Shown here: positions 10,262 to 21,241 of the stretch, in pieces | Numbering within the stretch: position 1 is the stretch's first letter | How the letters are laid out: every line of letters starts with the position of its first letter | Origin: Lysobacter antibioticus HS124 | Lineage (GTDB): Bacteria; Pseudomonadota; Gammaproteobacteria; Xanthomonadales; Xanthomonadaceae | Direction: 5' to 3' | Assembly (NCBI RefSeq): GCF_000336385.2 | Contig: NZ_HG424516.1 | Location: 1-33,052 of the forward strand | Length of the DNA: 33,052 bases | Notes under the pieces: generated by a model | Database searches by the model: none | What the model was told of the DNA's origin: nothing | The model's input: the letters and a program-made list of their open reading frames with translations, nothing else | Translations under genes and position numbers: made by a program

Positions 10262-11851
10262 TTACTGGCACTGCACCGTATCGCCGGCCTGGCCGCGGTA
10301 GGCGGCCCACATCGCGTCGGCGAAGTCGTCGCCGTAGTAGCCGTCGTCGCGGCCGGCGCCGTGCAGGGCCGGCCAGCGGCCGGTGCCGTCGCTCGGATTG
10401 CTGTCGAGCGCGCCGCTGCCGCGCGGCTGATAGGGGTCGGGCTGGGTCCAGGCGCCGTGGTTCACCCAGCGGTCGGCGTAGAGCAGGATGCGCGTGTCGG
10501 TCCATACGCAGCGCAGCGACGGCATCAGCCTCAGCGCCAGCGCCGCCGCCTTGTAGCCCTTGGCCGTGCAGCAGAACTGGTAGTAGCCGGCCGGCTCCTG
10601 GCCGCCGTCGATGTAACCGTACGGGTCGCGGCAGTCGCGCGTGCTGGTGCCGTTGTTCTGGTTCTCCCAGTACTCCTCGACCGTGCACGGACTGCCGAAC
10701 AGCACCTTGCCGCTGCCCGCGCCGATGCTGAGCTGACCGTCTTCCTGGTAGGTGTCCTGCTGGAAGTCGCGCACGCGCGCGGCCATCGCCGCATCGTCGA
10801 GCAACAGGGAACCGAGCGTCAACACCAGCTTGCGGCCGTGGCGGTGGCCGCCGTCGGCATAGAAATGCAGGCCGCCTTCCATCGCCGCCTGCAGATCCAG
10901 GGCGTACTGGGCGAGGAACATGGCCAACTGCCGACGCTGCGCGTCGTCGTCGCGCACCATCAGCCGCAACGCGGCCGAGGCGGTGTCGATCGCGATCTGC
11001 GCGCCGTAGTCGGGCATGTTCTGTTTGGGATGGATCTGGTCGGCCGACCAACCGAGCTGATGATCGAGCTGCACGCGGCGGAACCGGTCGGACACCGCAC
11101 TCAAGGCCGGCATCATCGGCAGCGGCGCGTACGCCGGCAGACGGTCCATGCGCAGCCGCGCGACCGGGATCAGCGGCTTCTTGCTGCCGAAGTACGGCGG
11201 CCGGAACAGGCCGCGGCCGTTGTCCGCCGGCGGCGCCGCGAGCACGGTCAGTACCGCGGCGGTTTCCAGCGAGGTCTTCTCGTCGCCGCTGCGCGAGATC
11301 GCCTTGACGATGGACTGGTTCGGCGCGGCGGAGTAAGGCAGCGCCGGCACCAGCCGCGCGTCGTAGCCGTAGGCGGTGCGGTCGAAGCCGTGGCGGCTGA
11401 CGCTGGAGGGGTTGACCTCGAAGCCGTTGCGGCCGCTGCTGAAGCCCGGCGAGATCGACATGATCCGCACCCGGCCCTGGCTGTCGCCCGCCGGCGCCAC
11501 CCAGAAGTCGCCGTTGGCGAACTGGCCGCAGGGATAGGCGCGGTCGAAGCCGAAGGTGATGCCGTATTGCTTCACGCTGCTGCACAGTGCGGGCGGCTCG
11601 GCGGCGACGACGGCGCGGCCGGTGCGGCCGTCGCCGGGTCGGGACGAAACGCCCCGATCGGCGATGCCGCCGACCGGAGCCGGCGACGCCACGGCGGCGG
11701 ACGCTTCTGCCGCCGCAACCCTCTCGGGCGCGGGCACAGCGTCCTGGCGTGGACAACCGCTCAACAACACGACGCCGGCGAACAGCGCGGCGGCGGACAG
11801 CCGTCGCGTCGCCGACGCAAGAACGATGGGAATGGAACGATGGCGATTCAT
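10262..11851 (-). CDS. Large secreted lipoprotein of unknown function
   Basis: A 529-residue protein with a lipoprotein signal: basic n-region, hydrophobic core and a perfect LSGC lipobox with Cys33. An Ala/Pro-rich linker (34-85) leads to a globular domain rich in aromatic residues, including KQYGITFGFDRAYPCGQF, GGLHFYADGGHRHGRKL and the C-terminal GRDDGYYGDDFADAMWAAYRG. Helical segments with Asp/His/Tyr clusters recall glycan-active alpha-toroid enzymes, but I recognise no family, so this is only a guess. Seven or more Cys residues follow the linker. AGGAG precedes the ATG at 11851. It starts 186 bases after the kinase gene of the RiPP operon on the same strand and could be read through from it or have its own promoter. 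Confidence 0.75.
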   Translation of the reverse strand: MNRHRSIPIVLASATRRLSAAALFAGVVLLSGCPRQDAVPAPERVAAAEASAAVASPAPVGGIADRGVSSRPGDGRTGRAVVAAEPPALCSSVKQYGITFGFDRAYPCGQFANGDFWVAPAGDSQGRVRIMSISPGFSSGRNGFEVNPSSVSRHGFDRTAYGYDARLVPALPYSAAPNQSIVKAISRSGDEKTSLETAAVLTVLAAPPADNGRGLFRPPYFGSKKPLIPVARLRMDRLPAYAPLPMMPALSAVSDRFRRVQLDHQLGWSADQIHPKQNMPDYGAQIAIDTASAALRLMVRDDDAQRRQLAMFLAQYALDLQAAMEGGLHFYADGGHRHGRKLVLTLGSLLLDDAAMAARVRDFQQDTYQEDGQLSIGAGSGKVLFGSPCTVEEYWENQNNGTSTRDCRDPYGYIDGGQEPAGYYQFCCTAKGYKAAALALRLMPSLRCVWTDTRILLYADRWVNHGAWTQPDPYQPRGSGALDSNPSDGTGRWPALHGAGRDDGYYGDDFADAMWAAYRGQAGDTVQCQ

Positions 11852-12003
11852 GGACTCTCTCTCCTGGGGACACGTCGCCGCGATCGGCGAACGCGTTATC
11901 GGAGTGCAGAATCGTCATGAACGGCGCTGCGCCGCCCACAGAATCACAAATCTGGAACAACCTGCCGCGCGCGCGCCAGGGCAACAGCGGCGCGCATCAC
12001 GCC

Positions 12004-12022
12004 GGCACAAATCGGTTACAAA
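12004..12022 (-). promoter_or_regulatory. Possible direct-repeat operator upstream of the lipoprotein gene
   Basis: On the reverse strand TTTGTAACC (from 12022) and TTTGTGCC (from 12011) form an 11-base-spaced direct repeat. TTTGTA also begins the half-site found upstream of hvfX. The location, between the two-component genes and the lipoprotein gene, makes regulation by that system conceivable. The match is short. Confidence 0.25.
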
Positions 12023-12037
12023 CCGCCGATGCGCGGC

Positions 12038-13366
12038 TCAGACGGCGGCGACGTCGTCCAGGCGCACCAGGGCTTCCAGACCGCCGCCGTCGCGATTGCG
12101 CAGACGCAGGCGCGCGCCGGCCGAGGGCGCGAGCTGCTGCGCGATCGCCAGGCCCAACCCGGTACCGCCGCTGTCGCGGTTGCGCGACCCTTCCAGGCGG
12201 TAGAACGGCTGCATCACCTGTTCGAGCCGGTCCTCCGGAATGCCGGGGCCACGGTCCGCAACCCTCAGCAGCACCGCATCGCCATCGCGGGCCAGTTCCA
12301 GTTCTGCGCTGCCGGCGTAGGCGAGCGCGTTGTCGATCAAGTTGGCGAGGATCCGCCGCAAGGCGTTCGGCCGGGTGACCAGCAATCGTCCGCTGCGGCC
12401 GCCCAGACTCACCGCACGGCCGGTGTCCTGGTAGTCGTAGACCAGGCTCTGCAGGAACGCGTCCAGATCGATCCGCAACGGCGTCTCGGCGGCGCCGTGG
12501 GCGCTGCGCGCGTAGGCGATGCCTTCGCGCACCAGACGCTCCATTTCGCCCAGGTCGTCCAGGGTCTTGTCGCGCTGCCCCCCCTCTTCCATGGCCTCGC
12601 AACGCAGCTTCATGCGCGTGATGGGGGTCTGCAGATCGTGCGAAATCGAGGCCAGGATCTGCAGCCGCTCCTGGGTGTATTGGGCGATGCGGTCCTGCAT
12701 GGCGTTGAACGCGGCCGCCGCGCCGACCACCTCGACCGGCCCGGTTTCCTGCAACCGCGGGCCCAGCCCGCCGGGGCTCAGCGACTCGGCCGCACGCGCC
12801 AACTGCGCCAGCGGCCGGGTCGCCAACCGCACCGCGCCCCAGGTGCACACCAGCAGCAACGCCAACTGCGCCGCCAGCACGTAGGGCAGCCAGCGCGCGA
12901 TCGGCATCGCCGAGGGCTGCACTTCCACGGTCACCGGTTCGCCGTCGCTCAGCCGCAGATGGATCTGGAAACGCTCCGGCCCGGCGGACACGGCATTGGC
13001 CCGCACCGGATAACGCGGCCCCAGCGCGGCGCCGACCCGGGCGACGAACTCGCGCGCCTCGTCGCTGGCCAGCGCGGCGCCGTCCTGGCCCGGGCCCAGC
13101 AGATAGTGAAAGGTGCGGCGCTTGAGCCGCGGCAGCCAGTCGGCGCGCTCTTGCGCCGGAATCCGGTCCAAGATCGCGACCGCGACGGTCACGTCCTGCT
13201 CCAGATTGCTCATCAGCATCGAGGTCGCGGCCTGGTAGCGCTCGTAGAACAACAACGCGAACGACAGCGCGTGCGCGGTCAGCAGGCCGGCGAACAGCAC
13301 CAGGTACAGCCGCGCGGCGATCGTGCGCGGCAGCAGTCGCCAGCCGCGTCGCAGCGCCGTGTTCAC
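12038..13366 (-). CDS. EnvZ/OmpR-class sensor histidine kinase
   Basis: A 442-residue inner-membrane kinase. Helix 1 is at residues 18-42 and helix 2 at 158-178; the 115 residues between form a periplasmic sensor. A HAMP linker follows (RPLAQLARAAESL), then the HisKA helix with His243 in SISHDLQTPITR, and an HATPase with N-box ILANLIDNALAYAG and G-boxes ADRGPGIP and GGTGLGLAIA. The start is GTG at 13366, overlapping the regulator's stop in a GTGA, so the two genes are coupled. It is the last gene of the nine-gene RiPP set, suggesting that the sensed signal is a periplasmic metal or redox state. No metal-binding His/Cys cluster is obvious in the sensor. Confidence 0.93.
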   Translation of the reverse strand: MNTALRRGWRLLPRTIAARLYLVLFAGLLTAHALSFALLFYERYQAATSMLMSNLEQDVTVAVAILDRIPAQERADWLPRLKRRTFHYLLGPGQDGAALASDEAREFVARVGAALGPRYPVRANAVSAGPERFQIHLRLSDGEPVTVEVQPSAMPIARWLPYVLAAQLALLLVCTWGAVRLATRPLAQLARAAESLSPGGLGPRLQETGPVEVVGAAAAFNAMQDRIAQYTQERLQILASISHDLQTPITRMKLRCEAMEEGGQRDKTLDDLGEMERLVREGIAYARSAHGAAETPLRIDLDAFLQSLVYDYQDTGRAVSLGGRSGRLLVTRPNALRRILANLIDNALAYAGSAELELARDGDAVLLRVADRGPGIPEDRLEQVMQPFYRLEGSRNRDSGGTGLGLAIAQQLAPSAGARLRLRNRDGGGLEALVRLDDVAAV

Positions 13367-14103
13367 GCGTCACCGCCGATCAGCTCGACCGGCATGGCGA
13401 ACACATAACCCTCGCTGCGCACGGTCTTGATATAGCTAGGCTCGCGCGCATCGTCCTGCAGCCGCTGGCGCACCCGGCTGACGAGCAGGTCGATGGAACG
13501 GTCGAAATGCTCGGCGTCGCGGCCCTGGGTCAGGCTCAGCAACTGGTCGCGGCTGAGTACGCGCTGGGGATGGTCGAGGAACACCCGCAGCAGCCGGAAT
13601 TCGGCGCCGCTGAGCGCTACCGCGGTGCCGTCGGGATCGAGCAGATGGCGCGCGATGGTATCCAAGCGCCAGCGGCCGAAGCCGACCAGGCTCGCGGCCT
13701 CGCTGATCTGCAGATTGGGCGGCAGCATGCGGGTGCGACGCAGCACGGCATTGATCCGAGCCAGCAATTCGCGTGCGGCGAAGGGTTTGACCAGATAGTC
13801 GTCGGCGCCCATCTCCAGGCCGACGATGCGGTCGGTGGGGTCGTCGCGCGCGGTCAGCATCAAGACCGGAATCGCGCGATGCTTGCCGGCGCGCAGGTTG
13901 CGGCACAGCACCAGCCCGTCTTCGCCCGGCATCATCAGATCGAGCACGATCAGGTCGACCGCATCGCCGTCCAGTGCCGCGCGCATCTCGCGACCGTCGG
14001 CCGCAGTGCTCGCGCGCAGTCCGTTCTTGCGCAGATAGTCGGCGACCATCTGGCGGATCTCGCGATCGTCGTCGACGACCAGGATGTGATCTACGTGATC
14101 CAT
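13363..14103 (-). CDS. OmpR-family response regulator
   Basis: A 246-residue regulator. The receiver has the acidic pair in VVDDDREIR (residues 9-16), phospho-acceptor Asp55 in LIVLDLMMPG, and the Lys of DDYLVKPFAAREL. A winged-helix DNA-binding domain occupies about 140-240, with recognition-helix region DRSIDLLVSRVRQRL and the wing KTVRSEGYVF. OmpR-class regulators bind tandem half-sites 10-11 bases apart. The ATG at 14103 has AAGGT upstream; a longer frame continues upstream but adds no domain. It starts 74 bases after the thioredoxin-like gene. Its likely target is the repeated TGTATC sites in front of hvfX, by inference from context. Confidence 0.94.
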   Translation of the reverse strand: MDHVDHILVVDDDREIRQMVADYLRKNGLRASTAADGREMRAALDGDAVDLIVLDLMMPGEDGLVLCRNLRAGKHRAIPVLMLTARDDPTDRIVGLEMGADDYLVKPFAARELLARINAVLRRTRMLPPNLQISEAASLVGFGRWRLDTIARHLLDPDGTAVALSGAEFRLLRVFLDHPQRVLSRDQLLSLTQGRDAEHFDRSIDLLVSRVRQRLQDDAREPSYIKTVRSEGYVFAMPVELIGGDA

Positions 14104-14177
14104 GCAGGCAACCTTGCGAACAAATTTCGTCGGCCCTGGCGGCGCCGGCTCCGCTGCGATTATGCCACCCGGCCGCG

Positions 14178-14723
14178 TCAATCCCGGGCCAGCAATTCCC
14201 GGATCCTGGCGTCGGTGGCCTCGTACCCGCCCTCACCGATATGTCGGTAGACCACCCGCCCCTGCCGATCGATCAGGTACAGCGCCGGCCAGAACCGGTT
14301 GCGATAAGCGTTCCAGGTCCGATAGTCGTTGTCCAACGCGACGGGATACTCGATTGCGTACCGCTTCACCGCCGCCTGGACGTTGGCGGGCCTGCGTTCC
14401 TCCTCGTATTCGGGCGTGTGCACGCCGACCACGACCAGGCCGCGGTCGCGATAGCGCCGGTGCCATTCGTTGACGTGCGGGGTGACGTGGATGCAATTGA
14501 TGCAGGCATAGGTCCAGAACTCGACCAGCACCACTTTTCCGCGCAGGCCCGCGAGCGTCAGCGGCGGGCTGTTGATCCAGCGGTCGATGCCGACGAACTC
14601 GGGCGCCGGCGCCGATCCTGCCGGTTCGGCCTGCGCCTGACCGCGGCAAGCGACGGCCAGCAGGCAGGCCGCCATCGTCAAGGCCGCGGCAGCGGCGCAG
14701 ATCCAGGGTCGCATCGCCGACAC
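14178..14723 (-). CDS. Exported thioredoxin-like protein with CINC motif
   Basis: A 181-residue envelope protein. The N-terminus is a signal sequence ending LLAVAC, a borderline lipobox at Cys26, so it is either periplasmic or lipid-anchored. The rest is a TlpA/redoxin thioredoxin fold: VLVEFWTYACINCIHVTPH carries the redox pair Cys74-Ile-Asn-Cys77, and FWPALYLIDRQG holds the cis-Pro loop region. A CINC active site is typical of DipZ/TlpA-like proteins that act on periplasmic thiols. The GTG at 14723 is chosen because GAGGAG lies eight bases upstream; the ATG at 14714 is too far from it. Only three bases separate it from the hydrolase gene. In this operon it could keep Cys residues of HvfA reduced, which is inference. 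Confidence 0.88.
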   Translation of the reverse strand: MSAMRPWICAAAAALTMAACLLAVACRGQAQAEPAGSAPAPEFVGIDRWINSPPLTLAGLRGKVVLVEFWTYACINCIHVTPHVNEWHRRYRDRGLVVVGVHTPEYEEERRPANVQAAVKRYAIEYPVALDNDYRTWNAYRNRFWPALYLIDRQGRVVYRHIGEGGYEATDARIRELLARD

Positions 14724-14726
14724 GAC

Positions 14727-15566
14727 TCAGCCCTCCTCGTGCGCGGCCGCCGGCGGCGGGCGCTTGCCGGCGGCTTCGAGGATCACCTCCGCGACCTCGC
14801 CCGGATGCGCTAACGGCGCGGCGTGACTGCCCTCGACCGACCGCAGTTGCGCGCCGATCCGCTGCGCGGTGGCGGTCTGCAGTTGCGGTGCGATCATGCG
14901 GTCCTGGCGCGTGGCCAGATACCAGCTCGGCCGCCCCTTCCAGGCCGCGTGGGCGACCGCGTCGTCGAAGGCGCGGGCGTGGATCGGCGACTGAGTACGG
15001 AACAGTTCGCGCACGGTGCGCGCCGTCAGGTCCTGCGCGAAATCCTCGCGCATGCCTTGTTCGTCGATGCGCAGCAGCCCGTCGCTGGCGACCAGATGGG
15101 CCAGCCCGGGCGGCGTCGGATAGCCGCGGCCCTGCTCGGCCGTGTTCTGGCCGACGTCCGGCGCGAATGCGGCGACATAGACCAACGCCGACACCTTGGC
15201 GTCGTCGCCCGCCTCGGTGATGACCGTACCGCCCCAGGAATGTCCGACCAGCACCACCGGCCCGGGCGCCGCCTGCAGCGCGCGCCGGGTCGCTTCGGCA
15301 TCGTCGCGCAGCGAGGTCAGCGGCAGGCGCACGCTGAGGGTGTTCAGGCCGCGCGCTTGCAGACGCTTGGCCACCTGCGCCCAACTGCCGGCATCGGCAA
15401 ACGCGCCGTGGACCAGGATCGCGGTGGCGGCGGGCGCCGGCGCGGCCGTATCGGCGGCCGACGCCGCGGGCGCCGCACCGGCACAGGCCAGCGCCAGCGC
15501 CAGCGCGAGAACGAGCGCACGGGGACGGCGCGCGAGGACGGCAACGGCCGGGAGATGGCGATTCAT
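14727..15566 (-). CDS. Secreted alpha/beta hydrolase
   Basis: A 279-residue exported protein. The signal peptide covers about residues 1-37 (ALALALACAGAAPAASA). The hydrolase fold begins at residue 47 with the oxyanion segment AILVHGAFADAGSW. The nucleophile elbow VLVGHSWGGTV carries Ser110, and the catalytic His is in VEGSHAAPLAHP near residue 257. This pattern matches the AB_hydrolase family related to plant esterases and haloperoxidases (HGAFADAGSWAQV). The ATG at 15566 overlaps the upstream stop as ATGA and has GGAG nine bases before it. Its role in a metal-RiPP operon is not obvious; cleavage of an ester, amide or modified peptide would be possible. Confidence 0.9.
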   Translation of the reverse strand: MNRHLPAVAVLARRPRALVLALALALACAGAAPAASAADTAAPAPAATAILVHGAFADAGSWAQVAKRLQARGLNTLSVRLPLTSLRDDAEATRRALQAAPGPVVLVGHSWGGTVITEAGDDAKVSALVYVAAFAPDVGQNTAEQGRGYPTPPGLAHLVASDGLLRIDEQGMREDFAQDLTARTVRELFRTQSPIHARAFDDAVAHAAWKGRPSWYLATRQDRMIAPQLQTATAQRIGAQLRSVEGSHAAPLAHPGEVAEVILEAAGKRPPPAAAHEEG

Positions 15567-16231
15567 GCTTGAGGCTCCAGATTCGGGGACACAGGGGACG
15601 GTGCGCGGCGTTGCCGCGCCCAGCGGCGCTTTTCCGATTGCGCCCATTTGCCGACCGCGCGCACCGCGACCGCGGCGCACATCAGCGCGAACGGCAGCGC
15701 GTACAGCGGGTCGGTCGGAATGCGTTTGAAGTACGAGAGCGCGAAGATCAGGGCGATGACCCACACACCGGCGGTGTGCAGCCGCTTCCAGGCCTGCGCG
15801 CCCATGCGCTGGGCCAGGGCATGGAACGAGGTTGCGCTCAACAAGACGATGAAGGCATAACCGAGCCCGCCCGGCAGATTGGTCAGCGCACTGCGGCCGA
15901 GCCAGAACGAGGGGTCGAGCTGGCCCAGGCGGACGATGGCGATCGCGTGCACCAGATGCGAGAACGCGAACGCCAGGCCGAGATAACGCCGTTCGCGCAG
16001 CAACGCGCGGGTCAGCCCGTTCGGCACCAACGTCGTCAGCGACGAAGCGACGAACACGCTCAGGAACAACGCGACTGAGCTGCGTGCGGTGGCGCGGATC
16101 ACCGCCCGCACGCCGGCCACCGGGTCGGCGTGCGCCGCCAGCAGCGTCGCGGACATCAGCAGCACCAGTGCCGCCAGCAACCAGAACAAAGGCCAGCCCT
16201 GCGGCCGTAAGCCGGATCGGTAGGCAATCAT
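15563..16231 (-). CDS. Ferric-reductase-like transmembrane haem protein
   Basis: A 222-residue inner-membrane protein with about six hydrophobic helices and no extra domains. The helices hold the paired His residues expected for haem b: FAFSHLVHAIAIVRLG, SFHALAQRMG, and KRLHTAGVWVIALIFALS. This is the ferric_reduct (PF01794) or MsrQ-like arrangement. Such proteins move electrons across the membrane, to iron, flavin or a periplasmic partner. The start at 16231 overlaps the hvfC stop (ATGA) and the end overlaps the hydrolase start (ATGA), so the gene is embedded in the operon. A link to metal or thiol redox fits the neighbouring HvfA and thioredoxin genes but is inferred. Confidence 0.85.
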   Translation of the reverse strand: MIAYRSGLRPQGWPLFWLLAALVLLMSATLLAAHADPVAGVRAVIRATARSSVALFLSVFVASSLTTLVPNGLTRALLRERRYLGLAFAFSHLVHAIAIVRLGQLDPSFWLGRSALTNLPGGLGYAFIVLLSATSFHALAQRMGAQAWKRLHTAGVWVIALIFALSYFKRIPTDPLYALPFALMCAAVAVRAVGKWAQSEKRRWARQRRAPSPVSPNLEPQA

Positions 16232-17001
16232 GACGAAACGCCTTGAATGTGGGGAACGGCCGCCATCGCGCCCGCGGCGCGCAGTCGTTGCAGCAGCTCC
16301 AGGCCTTGCGCCTGCCACTGCCGCAGCGCTTCGGCCCCGTGCAGGCCGGCTTCGTCCGCCAGGGCCAGCAGGTGCTCGCGGCCACGAGCCCGCCGCTGCG
16401 CGATCGCGTGCAGCAGGCGATAGGCCGGCGGGGCGAGCCGGACGAAGCGCACCTCATGCGCGGCATCGCGATAGACCAGCAGCATCGTCGGCAGCGCAGG
16501 CGCCTGTTCCGGCTGAAAGTCCGGCCCGATCTCGGCGACGGGCCAGCGATACGCCACCACCCTCGCCAACGGCGACAACTGCGGCACGCCTTCGAGCAGG
16601 TCCATCTGCGGTTCGTCGTCGGGCGGAACGGCATCGCTGAGCGCCAGTTCCTGTTCGATCCATTCGTAATGCGCCAGTTCGGCCAACCAAGCCGGCGCAG
16701 TGCCGTCGTCCGGCAGCGCCTGCGCGAACGCGACGAACTCCGCGGCCAGTTGCGGGAACAGCGGAGTCTGCGCGCGGTGATCCGCGTAGAAAGCGCGCAA
16801 CAGCCCGGTCCAGCGCGGCAACGGCAGGGTTTGGCGCAACACCGGAAAGCTGCCGGCCAGCAGGCCGTCGACAGCGTTGAAGAACAACTCGCGATACACC
16901 CGCAGCCGGCGCGGCTGCAAGCCCGGCGGCGGCGGATTCGCCTGCGGGTTGCGCAAATGCCGGGCCAGGGCCCACTGCTGCTCTTGCAGGCGCGCGCTCA
17001 T
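16228..17001 (-). CDS. hvfC: HvfC-type RiPP maturation partner (DUF2063)
   Basis: A 257-residue soluble protein. Residues 1-95 are the DUF2063 N-terminal domain: it starts LQEQQWALARHLRN, continues with RLRVYRELFFNAVDGLLAGSFPVL, and ends with LPQLAAEFVAFAQ. A second, mixed domain follows (ALPTMLLVYRDAAHEVRFVRL). HvfC/MbnC-like proteins pair with DUF692 oxidases and present the precursor peptide. The ATG at 17001 shares one base with the hvfB stop (TGATG) and has GGAGG at proper spacing; a GTG three bases earlier is also possible. Gene order B-C is the standard one for this family. Confidence 0.92.
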   Translation of the reverse strand: MSARLQEQQWALARHLRNPQANPPPPGLQPRRLRVYRELFFNAVDGLLAGSFPVLRQTLPLPRWTGLLRAFYADHRAQTPLFPQLAAEFVAFAQALPDDGTAPAWLAELAHYEWIEQELALSDAVPPDDEPQMDLLEGVPQLSPLARVVAYRWPVAEIGPDFQPEQAPALPTMLLVYRDAAHEVRFVRLAPPAYRLLHAIAQRRARGREHLLALADEAGLHGAEALRQWQAQGLELLQRLRAAGAMAAVPHIQGVSS

Positions 17002-17843
17002 CACGCGGCCTCCGCGACGGGGACGAAGGCGCGCTGCATGGCGCGGATTCGCTCGGTTTCGCCCAGCAGCTCGGCCAGCGGGGGCAGGTTGAAATCGCGC
17101 TCGAGCACAGTCGGACGCACGCCGAAACGGCGATACGCCTCGCCCAGCAGCGCCCAGGCGTCCTCGCGCACCGCAGCGCCGTGGGTGTCGATCTTGAGCC
17201 CCTCAGCATCGTCGTAATGGCCGGCGATGTGGTACGAGGCGATGCGTCCGCGCGGCAGTCGGTCGAGGAACTCGCCGACCGGATAGCCGTGATTGTGCGC
17301 GTTGACGCTCAGGTTGTTGAGGTCCAGCAACAGATCGCAATCGGCCTCGGCCAGTACCGCGGCGATGAAGTCCGCTTCGCTCAAGGCCTGGTAGGGCGCG
17401 GCGTAGTAGGACACGTTCTCCACCGCGATCCGGCGCCCCAACGCATCCTGCGCCTGGCGGATGCGCGCGGCGACGTGGCCGATCGCCTCCTCGGTGAACG
17501 GAATCGGCATCAGATCGTAGAGATGCCCATCGTCGGTGCAGTAGCTCAAATGTTCGCTGTACAGCGCGACCCGATGCCGGTCGAGGAACTCGCGGGTGCG
17601 GCGCAGCAACTGCGTGTCCAACGGCGCGGTGCCGCCCAGCGACAGCGACAGTCCGTGCGCGCTGATCGGCCAGCGTGCGGACAGTTCGGCCAGCGCTTCG
17701 CCGTAGCGGCCGCCGACGCCGATCCAGTTGTCCGGGGCGCATTCGAGGAAATCCACCGCGCCGGCGTCCATCGCCAGCAGTTCCGGCAGCAGGCCGCGGC
17801 GCAGTCCGAGGCCGGCGGAGCGAGCATTGAGAGTCGTATCCAT
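17001..17843 (-). CDS. hvfB: HvfB-type MNIO RiPP maturase (DUF692)
   Basis: A 280-residue TIM-barrel protein of the DUF692/UPF0276 family, now known as multinuclear non-haem iron oxidases (MNIO). Candidate metal ligands follow the family pattern: His63 in [11 protein letters not shown], Glu97/His98 in YSEHLSYC, Glu142 in [10 protein letters not shown], Asp174 and Asn176-177 in [16 protein letters not shown], His205 and His209 in YHIAGHYD, Asp219/His221 in KIDTHG, and Glu249 in [10 protein letters not shown]. Related enzymes convert Cys in EGKCG motifs into oxazolone/thioamide-type groups that bind copper. AGGA lies six bases before the ATG at 17843. The substrate is almost certainly the HvfA precursor 73 bases upstream. 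Confidence 0.95.
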
Positions 17844-17916
17844 GGCAAGTCCTGGGCGGGTCGCCGCGCGACCGGTGCCTGGCACCGATCGCGCGACGCG
17901 GGGAGGAAGACCGCGC

Positions 17917-18429
17917 TCAGCGGCCGCCGGCGGGGTGCTTGGCGAACAGGCCCGGCGGCATCGGCTTGCCGTTCGCGGCATAGGTGGCCTTGAGGAACTC
18001 GTAGGCCTCCGACTCGGAGATGAAGCCGTCGCGATCGCGGTCGATCTTGGCGAAGTCGGCGGCGCGTTGCGGCGCCACGGCGAGGAATTCCGCACGCGAC
18101 ACCCGGCCGTCGCCGCTGCGGTCGGTCTTGGCGAACGAAGCGTCGCCGCACTTGCCCTCGCCGCATTTGCCTTCCGCCTGCGCGGCCTTGCTGCCGGGCT
18201 TGCTGGCGCCGCACTTGCCTTCGCCGCACTTGCCCTCGGCGCCGGCATGGCTGGCGCCGAGCAGATAGCCCTGCGCCAGCGGCTGCATGGCGAAGGCCGA
18301 ACCGGCGAACAATCCGGTCAAGGCGGTCGCGGCGAGGGCCACGCCGAGTACGCCGGCCGATGCGGGCTTGGCGCGCGGGTCGGAACGCCGTTCGGAGGTC
18401 TTGGAGGTACGGGTTTCGGAACCTGACAT
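17917..18429 (-). CDS. hvfA: HvfA-type RiPP precursor with EGKCG repeats and EF-hands
   Basis: A 170-residue exported protein. Residues 1-47 are a signal peptide with a long polar n-region, cleaved near GSAFA. Two tandem pairs of EGKCG lie at 65-74 and 86-95; their Cys68, 73, 89 and 94 are the only cysteines. EGKCG is the site that DUF692 enzymes modify in HvfA and bufferin-type peptides. A second half carries two canonical EF-hand loops: D103-x-S-x-D-x-R-V-S-x-x-E114 and D130-x-D-x-D-x-F-I-S-x-x-E141. The tail is Pro/Lys-rich. GGAG precedes the ATG. Known function of relatives is copper binding outside the cytoplasm. The calcium-binding half is unusual for a RiPP precursor and could anchor, fold or switch the peptide. 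Confidence 0.93.
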
Positions 18430-18520
18430 CGGGTTGCTCCAGTGAAGAGCACGGATGCGCCGTGCGTGAGTCGCTGTCTGCGACGGGATGGGAATTCGGA
18501 ATGGATAAAACGAATGCCGC

Positions 18521-19201
18521 TCAGGGCGAAGCGGCGGCCAGCGGCCGGGGCGGCTGTAAACGGCTCAGCGTCAGCAGCCCCAGGCCGAGCACGGCCAGCG
18601 CGGCGCCGAACACCGGCAGCAGCGGCGCGAACGACAGGCCGATCGCCAATGCGGTCCAGCCCCAGGCGCGGCGGTCGGCGCTGGCCGTAACCGGCGTGCG
18701 GCGGGCGATCAGCGCATCCAGGCTGAGCCGGCCGGCGCCGTTCAAGATCAGCGGCAGCAACATCGCCAGATACAGCAGCGGCAATTTGTAGTTGCCGTAG
18801 CCGTCGTCGGTGATGGCGTAGCCGCGCCACAGCTCGGCCAGGTTGGCCCAGTGCTGCGGCCAGTGCACCGCGCCGATCGCGACGAGGGTCAGCACCCACA
18901 ACGCCGCCGCGGCATAGCGTGTGCCCAGCCCCAGCAACAAGGCCACGCTGGCGCCGAGTTCCAGACCGGTCGCCAAGTGCCAGTTGAGGTCGGCGCCGAA
19001 CCAGGAAAACGGCGGCGGAAACCGCCCGCCGAGTTCGGCGAACCAGTTCTGCCCGTGCAGCTTTTCGCGTCCGGCTTCGAAGAATTCCCACGCCAACAGG
19101 GCGCGCAGGCCCAGCGGCGCCAGCCAGCGGCCTACCGCGTCGATGCGGACCAGGAACGGCACGCGGGCGGAAGAATCGGTGCGGGTCGCGACGGTCGACA
19201 T
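18521..19201 (-). CDS. hvfX: HvfX-type DoxX-family membrane protein
   Basis: A 226-residue integral membrane protein of the DoxX family, found with HvfA/B/C and with gold-induced (gig) operons. Helix 1 follows the N-terminal 30 residues: [21 protein letters not shown] holds the typical Glu/Lys pair. Further helices are near residues 70-95, 97-115, 140-160 and 180-205. The C-terminus is a short basic tail. AGGAG precedes the ATG at 19201. It is the first gene of the set, 91 bases upstream of hvfA. Its mechanism is not established; a role in periplasmic redox or metal handling is assumed from co-occurrence. Confidence 0.9.
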
Positions 19202-19623
19202 GGTGCGCTCCTGGGCGTTGGCGGCTGCGTTTCGGAGGCGCCATTTCGCCCGCACGCGGTATCCGCACCGTGTCGCCGGGAACCGCTTTTTGTATCCGGA
19301 CCCTGCTCGCCCCCGGCGCGGATACAGTGCGATACAAAGCCGCTGCGGCTACGCAGGCCGGAGACCGATCCGCGGCCGGGTTTCGCCGGCGCGCCGGCTC
19401 GCCGCCCTCGACCGGCAGTCAAGCGCGCCCGGCGCGATCGGGCATGCGCCGCTGGCTGGGGCTGGGGATTGCGGCCATCGCGCGCGGCTCAGCCCCGCGG
19501 CTCATGCCAGCGGGCGGCGGCTCGTCCACAAACGCAGACCGGCGCTGCGCCGGACCGCTCGCAACGCACCGCGATCGCCGCCTCCGCCGATGCGCGGACC
19601 GACGGCGTCGCTGGGCGCCAAGC
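19202..19623. other. Promoter region of the RiPP operon and spacer
   Basis: This 422-base gap lies between the hvfX start and the stop of the next gene on the same strand. The part near hvfX (19259-19339) carries repeated TGTATC half-sites described separately. The remaining 280 bases are GC-rich and show no convincing gene. Confidence 0.5.
19259..19339 (-). promoter_or_regulatory. Cluster of TGTATC half-sites upstream of hvfX
   Basis: The reverse strand carries TGTATC at 19336-19331 and again at 19326-19321, exactly 10 bases apart, in the context TTTGTATCGCACTGTATCCG. On the forward strand TGTATCC (19291-19297) and GTATCC (19259-19264) are further copies facing the other way. A tandem 10-base repeat is the usual operator of OmpR-family regulators, and such a regulator is encoded in this operon. 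The sites lie 60-135 bases upstream of the hvfX start. Confidence 0.55.
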
Positions 19624-20511
19624 TCAGCGGAAATGGTTCTGCAGGAAGCTTTCGGTGGCCTCGATCAAGGCATCGACCTGGCGCCGGCTCTTGCCCAGGT
19701 TGAACATGCGGTCCATCGGCAGCACCAGCAACTCGCCTTCGCCGCCGTGGTAGCGGATCAGGCTTTCCGCCTGCGCCGGCTGCGGCGCGCCGATTTCGTC
19801 CTGGGTGCCGACGGCGACCATCAGCGGGCCGCCGTAGCGGGCGATCTCCGCCGGCGGCGACAGCGTGAACAGGCTGACGAAGAACGGTTGCTTCAGCGCG
19901 ACGGTGCGCCCGACCGCCAGATCGACCGTGGTCGGCACGCTGCCGCCGGCCAGTCCCTGGCGAATCTTGTCGCGACCCAGGCGCTGGATGAAGGCCGCGC
20001 CGACGTCGACGTCCGGGTTCCACAACGCCAGGCCGTCGAGCGGATAGCGGCTGCGCGCGGCGACCGCGCTGGCGACCGCGCCGCCCATGCCCCAGCCCAC
20101 CACCGCCATGCGTTGCGGGTCGACCTTGCCCGAACCGGCCAGGTATTCCAGCGCCTGTACGCCGTCGACCACGAACGCATCCAGGCTGCCGTCGGCGAAC
20201 TGGCCGTCGCTGTCGCCGTTGAAGCGATAGTCGATGCGCAGGCTGGCGATGCCCTGCTGGGCCCAGCGCTGTGCCGCGCGCGCGTACACGCCTTCCTTGA
20301 CCGCGCCGCCACGGCGTTCGTCGCGGTTGCCGGCGAACTCGGGCAACAGCAGCACCACCGGCGGATTGCGCACCCGCTCCGGCAGGTTCAAGGTGCCGAT
20401 CACCTTGCGCCCGGCAACGACATAGGCGGCCTGCGATTCGCCGGCCCAGGCCGGGCATGCGGCGAACGCCAGCAAGGCGGCGAGCGCGGTGCGGAGCGGG
20501 AATCGGGGCAT
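19624..20511 (-). CDS. Exported alpha/beta-hydrolase-fold protein lacking catalytic Ser and His
   Basis: A 295-residue protein with a signal peptide (residues 1-23, ending ACPAWA) and a dienelactone-hydrolase-like fold: VVLLLPEFAGNRDER, IASLRIDYRFNGDS, and a core elbow at 137-143. At the elbow the sequence is V-G-W-G-M-G-G, where the family has G-x-S/C-x-G, so position 141 is Gly. The acid loop VAVGTQDEIGAP keeps Asp. In LPMDRMFNLG the position where relatives have His (DH-x-F) is Arg. Two of three triad residues are therefore absent. The fold is otherwise intact and full length. It may be a binding protein or pseudoenzyme rather than a hydrolase. Confidence 0.82.
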   Translation of the reverse strand: MPRFPLRTALAALLAFAACPAWAGESQAAYVVAGRKVIGTLNLPERVRNPPVVLLLPEFAGNRDERRGGAVKEGVYARAAQRWAQQGIASLRIDYRFNGDSDGQFADGSLDAFVVDGVQALEYLAGSGKVDPQRMAVVGWGMGGAVASAVAARSRYPLDGLALWNPDVDVGAAFIQRLGRDKIRQGLAGGSVPTTVDLAVGRTVALKQPFFVSLFTLSPPAEIARYGGPLMVAVGTQDEIGAPQPAQAESLIRYHGGEGELLVLPMDRMFNLGKSRRQVDALIEATESFLQNHFR

Positions 20512-20731
20512 GGGCGCGGTTTCCAGAGTTCGGCAACAACGGACCGCCGGGATCGGCCGGCTGATCGGGCCGCCGCAGCGGCCCGGCTTCGGACGCTCTC
20601 GCGTCCCGCGCATCGGCGACGCCCCCTCGCAGCGCCGGTCGCGCGGGAATTGTAACGGCGCTGGCGGCCCAAGGATGCGCCGCTCAGCCCGCGTCGCCCA
20701 ACCGCACGCGGCCCGGCCTGTGCGCGCCGGA

Positions 20732-21241
20732 CTAGAGCGCGTACTCGCAGAACAGGTAGGTCGGCTCGTCCAACATCGGCAGCAGGCGCATTTCGCGCAA
20801 AGCGCCGGCCGGCGCGGCCGCGGCATCGCCTTCAAGCGCCCAATTGCAATCGCGCTCGCGGCAGCGGCCGCGGCTGCCTTTCGGCGGCGCGTCGGCCCAG
20901 GCGCTGCGGAACGCTCGTACGTAAGGCTGCGGTGGCCCCGGAAGTTCGATCCCGAGCCGATGCACCAGACCGTCGCGCAACTCGCGCCGCACCTGCACCG
21001 GTTCGACGCCGAGCACGCTCAAGCCGCGACCGGACAGCTTGGATTCGCCGACGCACTCCGGCTCGCACAGCGGTGGGCCGAGGTCGGGCTGTTGCGCCAG
21101 CCAGGCCGTCGCAGCCTGCGCGGTCGCCGGGCACGCGGCCTGCGCCGGCGCGAACAGTGCGCTGGCGCACAGCAGCAAGGGCGCGCCCAGCCGATCCCGC
21201 ATCCGCAGGCGCCGCGGCGCCCGATCCGTCCCTGTCCGCAT
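20732..21241 (-). CDS. Small secreted cysteine-containing protein, unknown
   Basis: A 169-residue protein with a signal sequence: basic n-region, LGAPLLLCASALF core and cleavage near APAQA. The mature part has Cys residues in ACPAT, LCEPECVGE, RGRCRERDCNW and LFCEYAL, probably in disulphides. SVLGVEPVQVRRELRDGLVHRLGIELP in the middle looks like one strand-helix unit. I do not recognise the family. AAGGGA upstream supports the ATG at 21241. It is divergent from the acetyltransferase and lies 220 bases upstream of the pseudohydrolase on the same strand. Confidence 0.7.
   Translation of the reverse strand: MRTGTDRAPRRLRMRDRLGAPLLLCASALFAPAQAACPATAQAATAWLAQQPDLGPPLCEPECVGESKLSGRGLSVLGVEPVQVRRELRDGLVHRLGIELPGPPQPYVRAFRSAWADAPPKGSRGRCRERDCNWALEGDAAAAPAGALREMRLLPMLDEPTYLFCEYAL

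Follow-up and report, generated by a model that had tools for sequence, protein, structure and literature searches.

Clusters of the HvfXABC type, also called oxazolin or captophorin clusters (MNIO-PME1), are the closest described relatives of a locus in the 33,052-nucleotide stretch of Lysobacter antibioticus HS124 DNA analysed here (contig NZ_HG424516.1; the window). In the main text of PMC12668002, thiooxazole modification and copper binding are assigned to such products and co-occurring transcriptional regulators are reported as frequent. The Lysobacter locus comprises nine genes: hvfXABC, for a ribosomally synthesized and post-translationally modified peptide (RiPP) and its partners, and genes for a ferric-reductase-like membrane protein (FeRed), an alpha/beta hydrolase, a thioredoxin-fold protein, and the response regulator (RR) and histidine kinase (HK) of a two-component system (TCS). 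It is probable that this OmpR-type TCS, itself undescribed, controls an envelope redox regulon that includes the EF-hand hvf peptide and the haem-type membrane protein. The observations behind this, all computational, are the gene content, its linkage, a sequence box, and the co-occurrence of that box with the RR. The predicted regulon is the new element, and the regulatory link would be new.

For relatives of the locus, the available parts of the literature report sigma/anti-sigma genes in Buf1 clusters (PMC12452194), RpoS as suggested regulator of a GIG operon (PMC5413113), and a LysR-type gene in one Pseudomonas cluster list (PMC8719888), the last two sources dealing with other hvf/GIG-type operons. 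The terms two-component, TlpA, and thioredoxin are not present in the main text of PMC12452194, nor are two-component, ferric, and thioredoxin in that of PMC12668002; a term search of the available text of PMC12538549 returned no two-component, ferric, thioredoxin, sigma, or regulator. Unrelated genes were taken in PMC12452194 only when no more than 10 bp from a relevant gene, as given in its available text, therefore an RR-HK pair placed as here would be missed. No description of this TCS with hvf, nor any two-component regulator of MNIO-made thiooxazole peptides, was found in the literature searched, most subscription papers and all supplements being beyond reach. The initial annotation of the window knew of no described system with this exact gene set. 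The FeRed association and the precursor type are partly in print: the available text of PMC12452194 describes both Buf_EGKCG|EF-hand chimaeras and ferric-reductase-bearing EGKCG clusters, with reductases in few clusters.

The nine genes, all on the minus strand, are as follows.
18521..19201, minus: hvfX, DoxX-type membrane protein (Pfam DoxX; NCBIfam NF050144 above cut-off)
17917..18429, minus: hvfA, RiPP precursor (a single hydrophobic segment, N-terminal; the KCG motif four times; two loops of EF-hand type)
17001..17843, minus: hvfB, MNIO enzyme (NF003818 above cut-off)
16228..17004, minus: hvfC, partner protein (NF050145 above cut-off)
15563..16231, minus: FeRed, ferric-reductase/MsrQ-like membrane protein (H92, H95, and H152 unchanged across 16 homologues; six hydrophobic segments)
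14727..15566, minus: alpha/beta hydrolase, accessory (N-terminal hydrophobic segment; adjoins the locus in 10/18 genomes)
14178..14714, minus: thioredoxin-fold protein (N-terminal hydrophobic segment, WTYACINC, DipZ C-domain type)
13363..14103, minus: RR, OmpR-type response regulator (Pfam/NCBIfam matches)
12038..13366, minus: HK, EnvZ-like histidine kinase with HAMP/HisKA (H243 in 85/85 distinct homologues; Cys174, where the second hydrophobic segment ends, in 83/85)

As in captophorin clusters, HvfX, HvfB, and HvfC score above the curated NCBIfam cut-offs (130.3, cut-off 80; 397.9, 360; 266.2, 142), in a single same-strand run, and the precursor is of the EGKCG type with an N-terminal hydrophobic segment. 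HvfA scores above cut-off with the KCGExKCG_twice domain NF050137 (44.9, cut-off 19.5), which supports the paired EGKCG motif, and is short of the full HvfA equivalog (31.4, cut-off 95). Thiooxazole modification and copper binding of the product are predicted from cluster membership. Unlike captophorin clusters, the locus is linked to a TCS and redox genes and its precursor is an EGKCG/EF-hand chimaera, with EF-hand matches and the loop motif, a feature missed in the initial annotation; its matches among PDB sequences are eukaryotic EF-hand proteins only. The EF-hand motif occurs in the precursors of 50 of 54 distinct TCS-linked loci, compared with 39 of 76 unlinked loci.

A second likeness, and the closest precedent studied in detail for the proposed mechanism, is to HprSR-MsrPQ of E. 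coli (together with CusSR), where a haem membrane protein is under two-component control in envelope redox stress, and where oxidant and copper signals converge on that protein and a copper chaperone (PMC10151825, PMC9302797; available text). A transmembrane Cys in HprS matters for signalling (PMC10151825, available text). However, FeRed is far below the MsrQ equivalog (32.1 of 130), the RR is far below HprR (117.8 of 353), and there is no MsrP among the nine genes. The systems thus resemble each other in how they work and not as members of one family, since none of FeRed, RR, and HK reaches the respective cut-off. FeRed barely passes Pfam Ferric_reduct (28.4, cut-off 28) and is a weak member of the ferric-reductase superfamily; its sole match among PDB sequences is at E 0.38. 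The three invariant histidines and six hydrophobic segments suggest that it may carry haem.

The thioredoxin resembles DipZ/CcdA-TlpA thiol systems. Its best PDB match is DipZ (2hyx, E 1.5e-49), its WTYACINC fits the DipZ-type pattern WTYxCxNC, and CcdA is adjacent in some relatives; in others, the thioredoxin matches fall within open frames of roughly 600 aa, as long as a fusion would be. Unlike DipZ, the protein here stands alone.

Both TCS proteins find their best hits in OmpR/EnvZ (NF007005/NF007004), yet below cut-off (244.6 of 331; 172.9 of 415); one Pseudomonas RR and one Archangium RR also fall short of the OmpR cut-off. The cut-offs of heavy-metal TCSs (CzcRS/SilRS/CopRS; TIGR01387/TIGR01386) are likewise not reached (142 of 279.2; 109.4 of 292.55).

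A direct-repeat box and its distribution

The evidence that the TCS probably regulates the hvf locus comes from a box with the pattern TTTGTATC-N4-TGTATC, 119 bp before the hvfX ATG. It is followed downstream, in the hvfX upstream alignment, by GACAAA/ATACAAA, then GACAC-N6-GATACC, then GAAAT.GC. The corresponding features of the window are listed here.
19320..19338, minus: predicted RR box TTTGTATCGCACTGTATCC, a direct repeat with 10-bp period (sole genome match at up to one mismatch)
19289..19297, minus: conserved element GGATACAAA, mostly GACAAA or ATACAAA in relatives (promoter alignment, 24 loci)
19258..19274, minus: conserved element GACAC-N6-GATACC, possibly promoter core (promoter alignment, 24 loci)
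19240..19247, minus: conserved element GAAATGGC, possibly promoter core (promoter alignment, 24 loci)

OmpR-type regulators bind direct repeats of 10–11 bp. A spacer of five bases proved to be the wrong register; the repeat spacer is four bases.

In the 5.14-Mb draft genome to which the window belongs, the box at up to one mismatch matches only before hvfX. Across 20 Lysobacter genomes, this one included, there are 33 such matches, 18 before hvfX and 15 others. Each of the 18 genomes with the locus has one box before hvfX and the two without the locus have none; the reversed box was found in none of the 20. In 120 loci (L047-L166, 2.28 Mb), TGTATC-N4-TGTATC at up to one mismatch gave 45 hits, compared with 0–4 at 15 other spacers and 0–3 in five Markov simulations. 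A further set of 61 loci outside Lysobacter and Stenotrophomonas, picked by FeRed and not used for motif discovery, gave 66 hits at up to one mismatch with spacer 4 against 0–2 at ten other spacers. At up to two mismatches there were 112 hits, in 54 of the 61 loci, and for 107 of these the nearest gene start within 350 bp belonged to a module gene (FeRed 47, RR 45, hvfA 10, hvfB 2, and one each for hvfX, Ohr, and CcdA).

Among distinct hvf loci, at up to two mismatches, the box is found in 54/54 that are RR-linked (RR at at least 65 % identity; nine duplicate fetches of a locus removed), compared with 3/76 unlinked. In 47 of the 54 it stands immediately in front of an hvf gene and in seven elsewhere in the stretch. 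Two of the three unlinked loci with a box, L116 and L122, have a distant RR (55–57 %), and the genome of the third, L089 (G129), encodes the RR-HK pair elsewhere. Of the 149 family genomes, 13 have a perfect box, and every one of these is among the 31 in which the thioredoxin is matched, DipZ fusions included (hypergeometric 1.2e-10, kinship of the genomes being ignored). One of the 13, G029, has only a thioredoxin match of DipZ-fusion length, and its fetched stretch has a distant RR. In 14 of 21 loci the FeRed stretch carries a box while the RR is not found locally; 13 of these genomes encode the RR elsewhere, at 76–80 % identity. In hvf-free loci of the family the box precedes Ohr, CcdA, RR, or hydrolase genes, and in Pseudomonas and other genera it precedes FeRed and RR genes.

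All 15 further boxes of the genus were fetched, and ten precede alpha/beta hydrolase genes of one family (Pfam run on two), which is predicted to belong to the regulon. These hydrolases appear by eye to be exported, and most of their genes have the same downstream elements. The ten loci (L167, L168, L171-L173, and L176-L180) lie away from the hvf locus. GACAC-N6-GATACC and GAAATGGC (19240-19274) are conserved like the box, also before most of these in-trans genes.

Because box and regulator co-occur across shuffled arrangements, in cis and in trans, binding of the RR to TTTGTATC-N4-TGTATC is the best explanation, and it is this RR that would recognize the box. The loci were picked by thioredoxin, FeRed, or hvfB, therefore the frequencies of gene pairs are biased; the box played no part in the choice.

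Gene content and arrangement in relatives

FeRed is present in 18 of the 20 Lysobacter genomes and always adjoins the closest hvfB of the genome, an arrangement therefore beyond chance. All 18 loci have the order hvfB-C-FeRed, and 16 (this one and L047-L061) have hvfX-A-B-C-FeRed through to thioredoxin-RR-HK on one strand. In the remaining two (L062 and L063), HK-RR-thioredoxin-CcdA-hydrolase diverges from hvfX-A-B-C-FeRed. A hydrolase gene is found beside ten of the 18 loci, an Ohr peroxiredoxin gene beside seven, and CcdA beside four. The initial annotation had suggested looking for conservation of the nine-gene order; the locus is conserved, but the exact nine-gene content is restricted to three genomes (this one, G153, and G160), as far as the queries tell. 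As for the two genomes without the locus, G062 has RR-HK-hydrolase and Ohr-CcdA-thioredoxin with no hvf in the stretch (L064), and G156 lacks FeRed, its thioredoxin match being a distant one.

All 19 other genomes of the genus have a plain hvf locus, either second or only; in the genome of the window just a fragment of one is seen, cut by a contig end (L002). In the 20 plain regions fetched (L067-L086, two from G153), hvfX follows hvfC in 11, no FeRed, hydrolase, thioredoxin, RR, or HK match was found at E 1e-8, and there are no boxes.

In the 149 family genomes hvfB was found in 117, thioredoxin (DipZ fusions included) in 31, and FeRed in eight, of which seven are strong and beside hvfB and the eighth is weak (E 2.4e-4). 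In four genomes of three other genera (L087, L088, L092, and L094), hvfXABC is accompanied by Ohr, RR, HK, and thioredoxin, with no FeRed; the L092 Ohr copy scores 158 with TIGR03561 (cut-off 88.85). In 20 loci picked by thioredoxin, 12 within the family and eight beyond, varied combinations of Ohr, CcdA, hydrolase, RR, and HK are found, some with an epoxide-hydrolase-type gene and another alpha/beta hydrolase gene in between, and no hvf gene matched at E 1e-6. A FeRed profile search of the genome collection gave 131 relatives, of which the best 80 were used. These are from Lysobacter, Stenotrophomonas, Pseudomonas, Stutzerimonas, Bordetella, Rheinheimera, Archangium, Mesorhizobium, and two unplaced gammaproteobacteria, and gene order and direction are shuffled across them. 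Within 7.5 kb of FeRed, hvfB is found in 40 of the 80 loci, all 40 also with the RR (>55 % identity), and is missing from the other 40, some of which are cut by contig ends.

Several simpler accounts of these genes were not supported. FeRed is exclusive to hvf within the family (7/7 strong matches) but not in Pseudomonas; it is not a replacement for CcdA, both being present in many Pseudomonas loci; and neither hydrolase nor thioredoxin is restricted to hvf, the hydrolase not being beside 8/18 genus loci and both being found without hvf. In Mesorhizobium (L202), a FeRed homologue has no box, RR, or hvf match within 7.5 kb. No RR was found in that genome at E 1e-90, which places this FeRed outside the regulon.

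A one-time merger of two modules is rejected on the RR tree, where the labels linked and free (no hvfB in the fetched stretch) need 13 changes, at least 10 of them forced by starred branches; rows L116, L122, and L143 are outgroup paralogues labelled linked. The Archangium locus (L227, Myxococcota) has FeRed, RR, HK, thioredoxin, CcdA, hydrolase, Ohr, and boxes, and no hvf match. Since its RR falls inside the Lysobacteraceae section of the RR tree, transfer between phyla is likely. In the plain hvf loci L116, L122, and L143, a more distant RR-HK pair (RR 55–58 %) lies about 3.6–8.2 kb away, with one, three, and no boxes nearby, respectively; this may be a sister TCS serving a second type of hvf.

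Predicted regulon and competing explanations

The locus can be read as two modules that meet under one regulator. The RR-HK pair would drive promoters carrying the box, its recurrent targets being hvfXABC (EF-hand captophorin), FeRed, the DipZ-type CcdA/TlpA pair, Ohr, exported-looking hydrolases, and the RR-HK genes themselves. That Ohr, CcdA, a DipZ-type thioredoxin, an MsrQ-like protein, hydrolases, and an EF-hand peptide are the candidate targets points to envelope redox stress. In the window, transcription would start from the box before hvfX and reach the thioredoxin gene, possibly continuing through RR-HK. The kinase would sense an oxidant in the envelope, be it a hydroperoxide, reactive chlorine, or a compound that reacts with thiols, or else accompanying copper/oxidant damage, perhaps via its conserved transmembrane Cys174. 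The RR would induce HvfABC, so that a thiol-carrying peptide able to bind Cu(I) is made and exported into the periplasm; FeRed and the thioredoxin would provide electrons outside, and the hydrolase would remove toxic esters or epoxides. In this scheme the signal, copper binding by this HvfA, haem in FeRed, the flow of electrons, and the hydrolase substrate are inferred. The more specific proposal, that an undescribed TCS of Pseudomonadota and one Myxococcota genome is a dedicated envelope-oxidant regulator that has repeatedly recruited EF-hand captophorin genes, is tentative, with close to even chances of being correct. If true, EF-hand captophorins in these bacteria serve thiol/hydroperoxide defence and not metal buffering alone. 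The role of MNIO-made thiooxazole peptides is debated between copper buffering and oxidative stress (PMC12668002, available text); with a predicted site, its candidate regulator, and the genes expected to be co-regulated, this becomes directly testable, and pattern searches with the box are a way to find further members of the regulon.

A number of results weigh against regulation by this TCS or against its role in redox stress. In the 61-locus set, other spacers gave 1–15 hits at up to two mismatches, therefore this level carries noise, and seven loci have no box. Five of the 15 further boxes of the genus have no conserved open frame behind them. In P. farris (L237) there is a box next to FeRed, but a search for the RR found none at E 1e-90. 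Five of six genomes with FeRed but no box within 7.5 kb still encode the RR (L216, L219, L221, L247, and L259; not L202), therefore a box at FeRed cannot be predicted from the RR alone, and G062 has RR, HK, hydrolase, and thioredoxin with boxes only at two mismatches. The box statistics come from related loci that are phylogenetically not independent. Domain search found no MsrP, the molybdopterin oxidoreductase, among the nine genes, and no CcdA match, linked or fused, was found in the window. In the periplasmic part of HK, no Cys or His is conserved in at least 85 % of the 85 homologues, therefore direct sensing there of a metal or of thiols is not indicated.

Foremost among the alternatives is copper, or gold, as the signal, the TCS being a copper sensor, the peptide a buffer of periplasmic Cu(I), and the redox genes a means of repairing copper damage. 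The available text of the sources is in keeping with this, since captophorins bind copper, a GIG operon of related type shows a response to both Cu and Au (PMC12668002, PMC5413113), and E. coli MsrPQ is induced by copper via CusSR (PMC9302797). However, RR and HK are far below the heavy-metal cut-offs given above, the periplasmic part of the kinase lacks conserved Cys/His, and the hvf-free module carries Ohr, CcdA/TlpA, and hydrolases (copper genes were not among the queries). Copper as the signal is unlikely, though it deserves consideration.

The box might instead be read by another, unlinked regulator, maybe also of the OmpR family, with the TCS as a fellow target. The RR is the nearest gene for 45/112 hits in the 61-locus set, as a target would be, and boxes at FeRed are not predicted by the presence of the RR. 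Against this, perfect boxes within the family occur only with the thioredoxin marker (13/13), and the contrast between RR-linked and unlinked hvf loci is nearly complete. In addition, a repeat with a 10-bp period suits the tandem dimer of an OmpR-type regulator, for which autoregulation is usual. A separate regulator is improbable on this evidence.

Less probable again is the view of the initial annotation, in which all nine genes form a RiPP pathway of their own and the peptide is matured or reduced by FeRed, the hydrolase, and the thioredoxin. The four-base overlaps from hvfB to the hydrolase gene and the invariant hvfB-C-FeRed order in the genus favour it, and FeRed, thioredoxin, and TCS do accompany hvfXABC. 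A single fixed pathway, however, is not supported, in view of the occurrence of RR, HK, thioredoxin, and hydrolase genes, with Ohr and CcdA, without hvfABC, the very finding that the annotation had named as refuting it, and of FeRed without hvfB nearby in half of the 80 loci. The hydrolase adjoins only 10/18 genus loci, and hvfABC alone in E. coli reportedly yields fully modified product (PMC12668002, available text). Calcium as the signal, via the EF hands, is the most improbable: it would agree with the EF-hand motif in 50/54 TCS-linked precursors and with EfhP of Pseudomonas aeruginosa, cited as a Ca2+ example in the available text of PMC12452194, but the EF hands are in the product and not the kinase, and regulator and box are also found in stretches without an hvf match.

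Junctions, transcription signals and neighbouring genes

The coordinates bear out the layout of nine genes on one strand with the junctions first noted. The gaps are 91 bases for hvfX-hvfA and 73 for hvfA-hvfB, then −4 each for hvfB-hvfC, hvfC-FeRed, and FeRed-hydrolase (four-base overlaps), 12 for hydrolase-thioredoxin, 74 for thioredoxin-RR, and −4 for RR-HK. The thioredoxin gene has an alternative GTG start at 14723 on the minus strand, with which its gap to the hydrolase gene is three bases.

Scanning of 11700-19500 gave no sigma70-like promoters (shuffles 0.6 ± 0.8), including at GACAC-N6-GATACC and GAAATGGC, and an Rfam scan gave no match reaching the gathering score. Eight terminator-like sites were found in the same region, compared with 3.8 ± 1.8 for shuffled sequence; one coincides with the stop codon of hvfX. 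A terminator or attenuator after hvfX was rejected, as a comparable stem and T run is present, by eye, only in the same-species copy and not in eight relatives.

Directly after the kinase gene there is a 529-aa gene, lipoprotein-like by eye (10262-11851, minus strand), for which neither Pfam nor NCBIfam gave a match at E 0.01. In the 20 loci searched, matches to it next to the locus were confined to the two nearest relatives (L047 and L048). Upstream of the box, on the same strand, is a further alpha/beta hydrolase gene (19624-20835, minus; Pfam Hydrolase_4, DLH).

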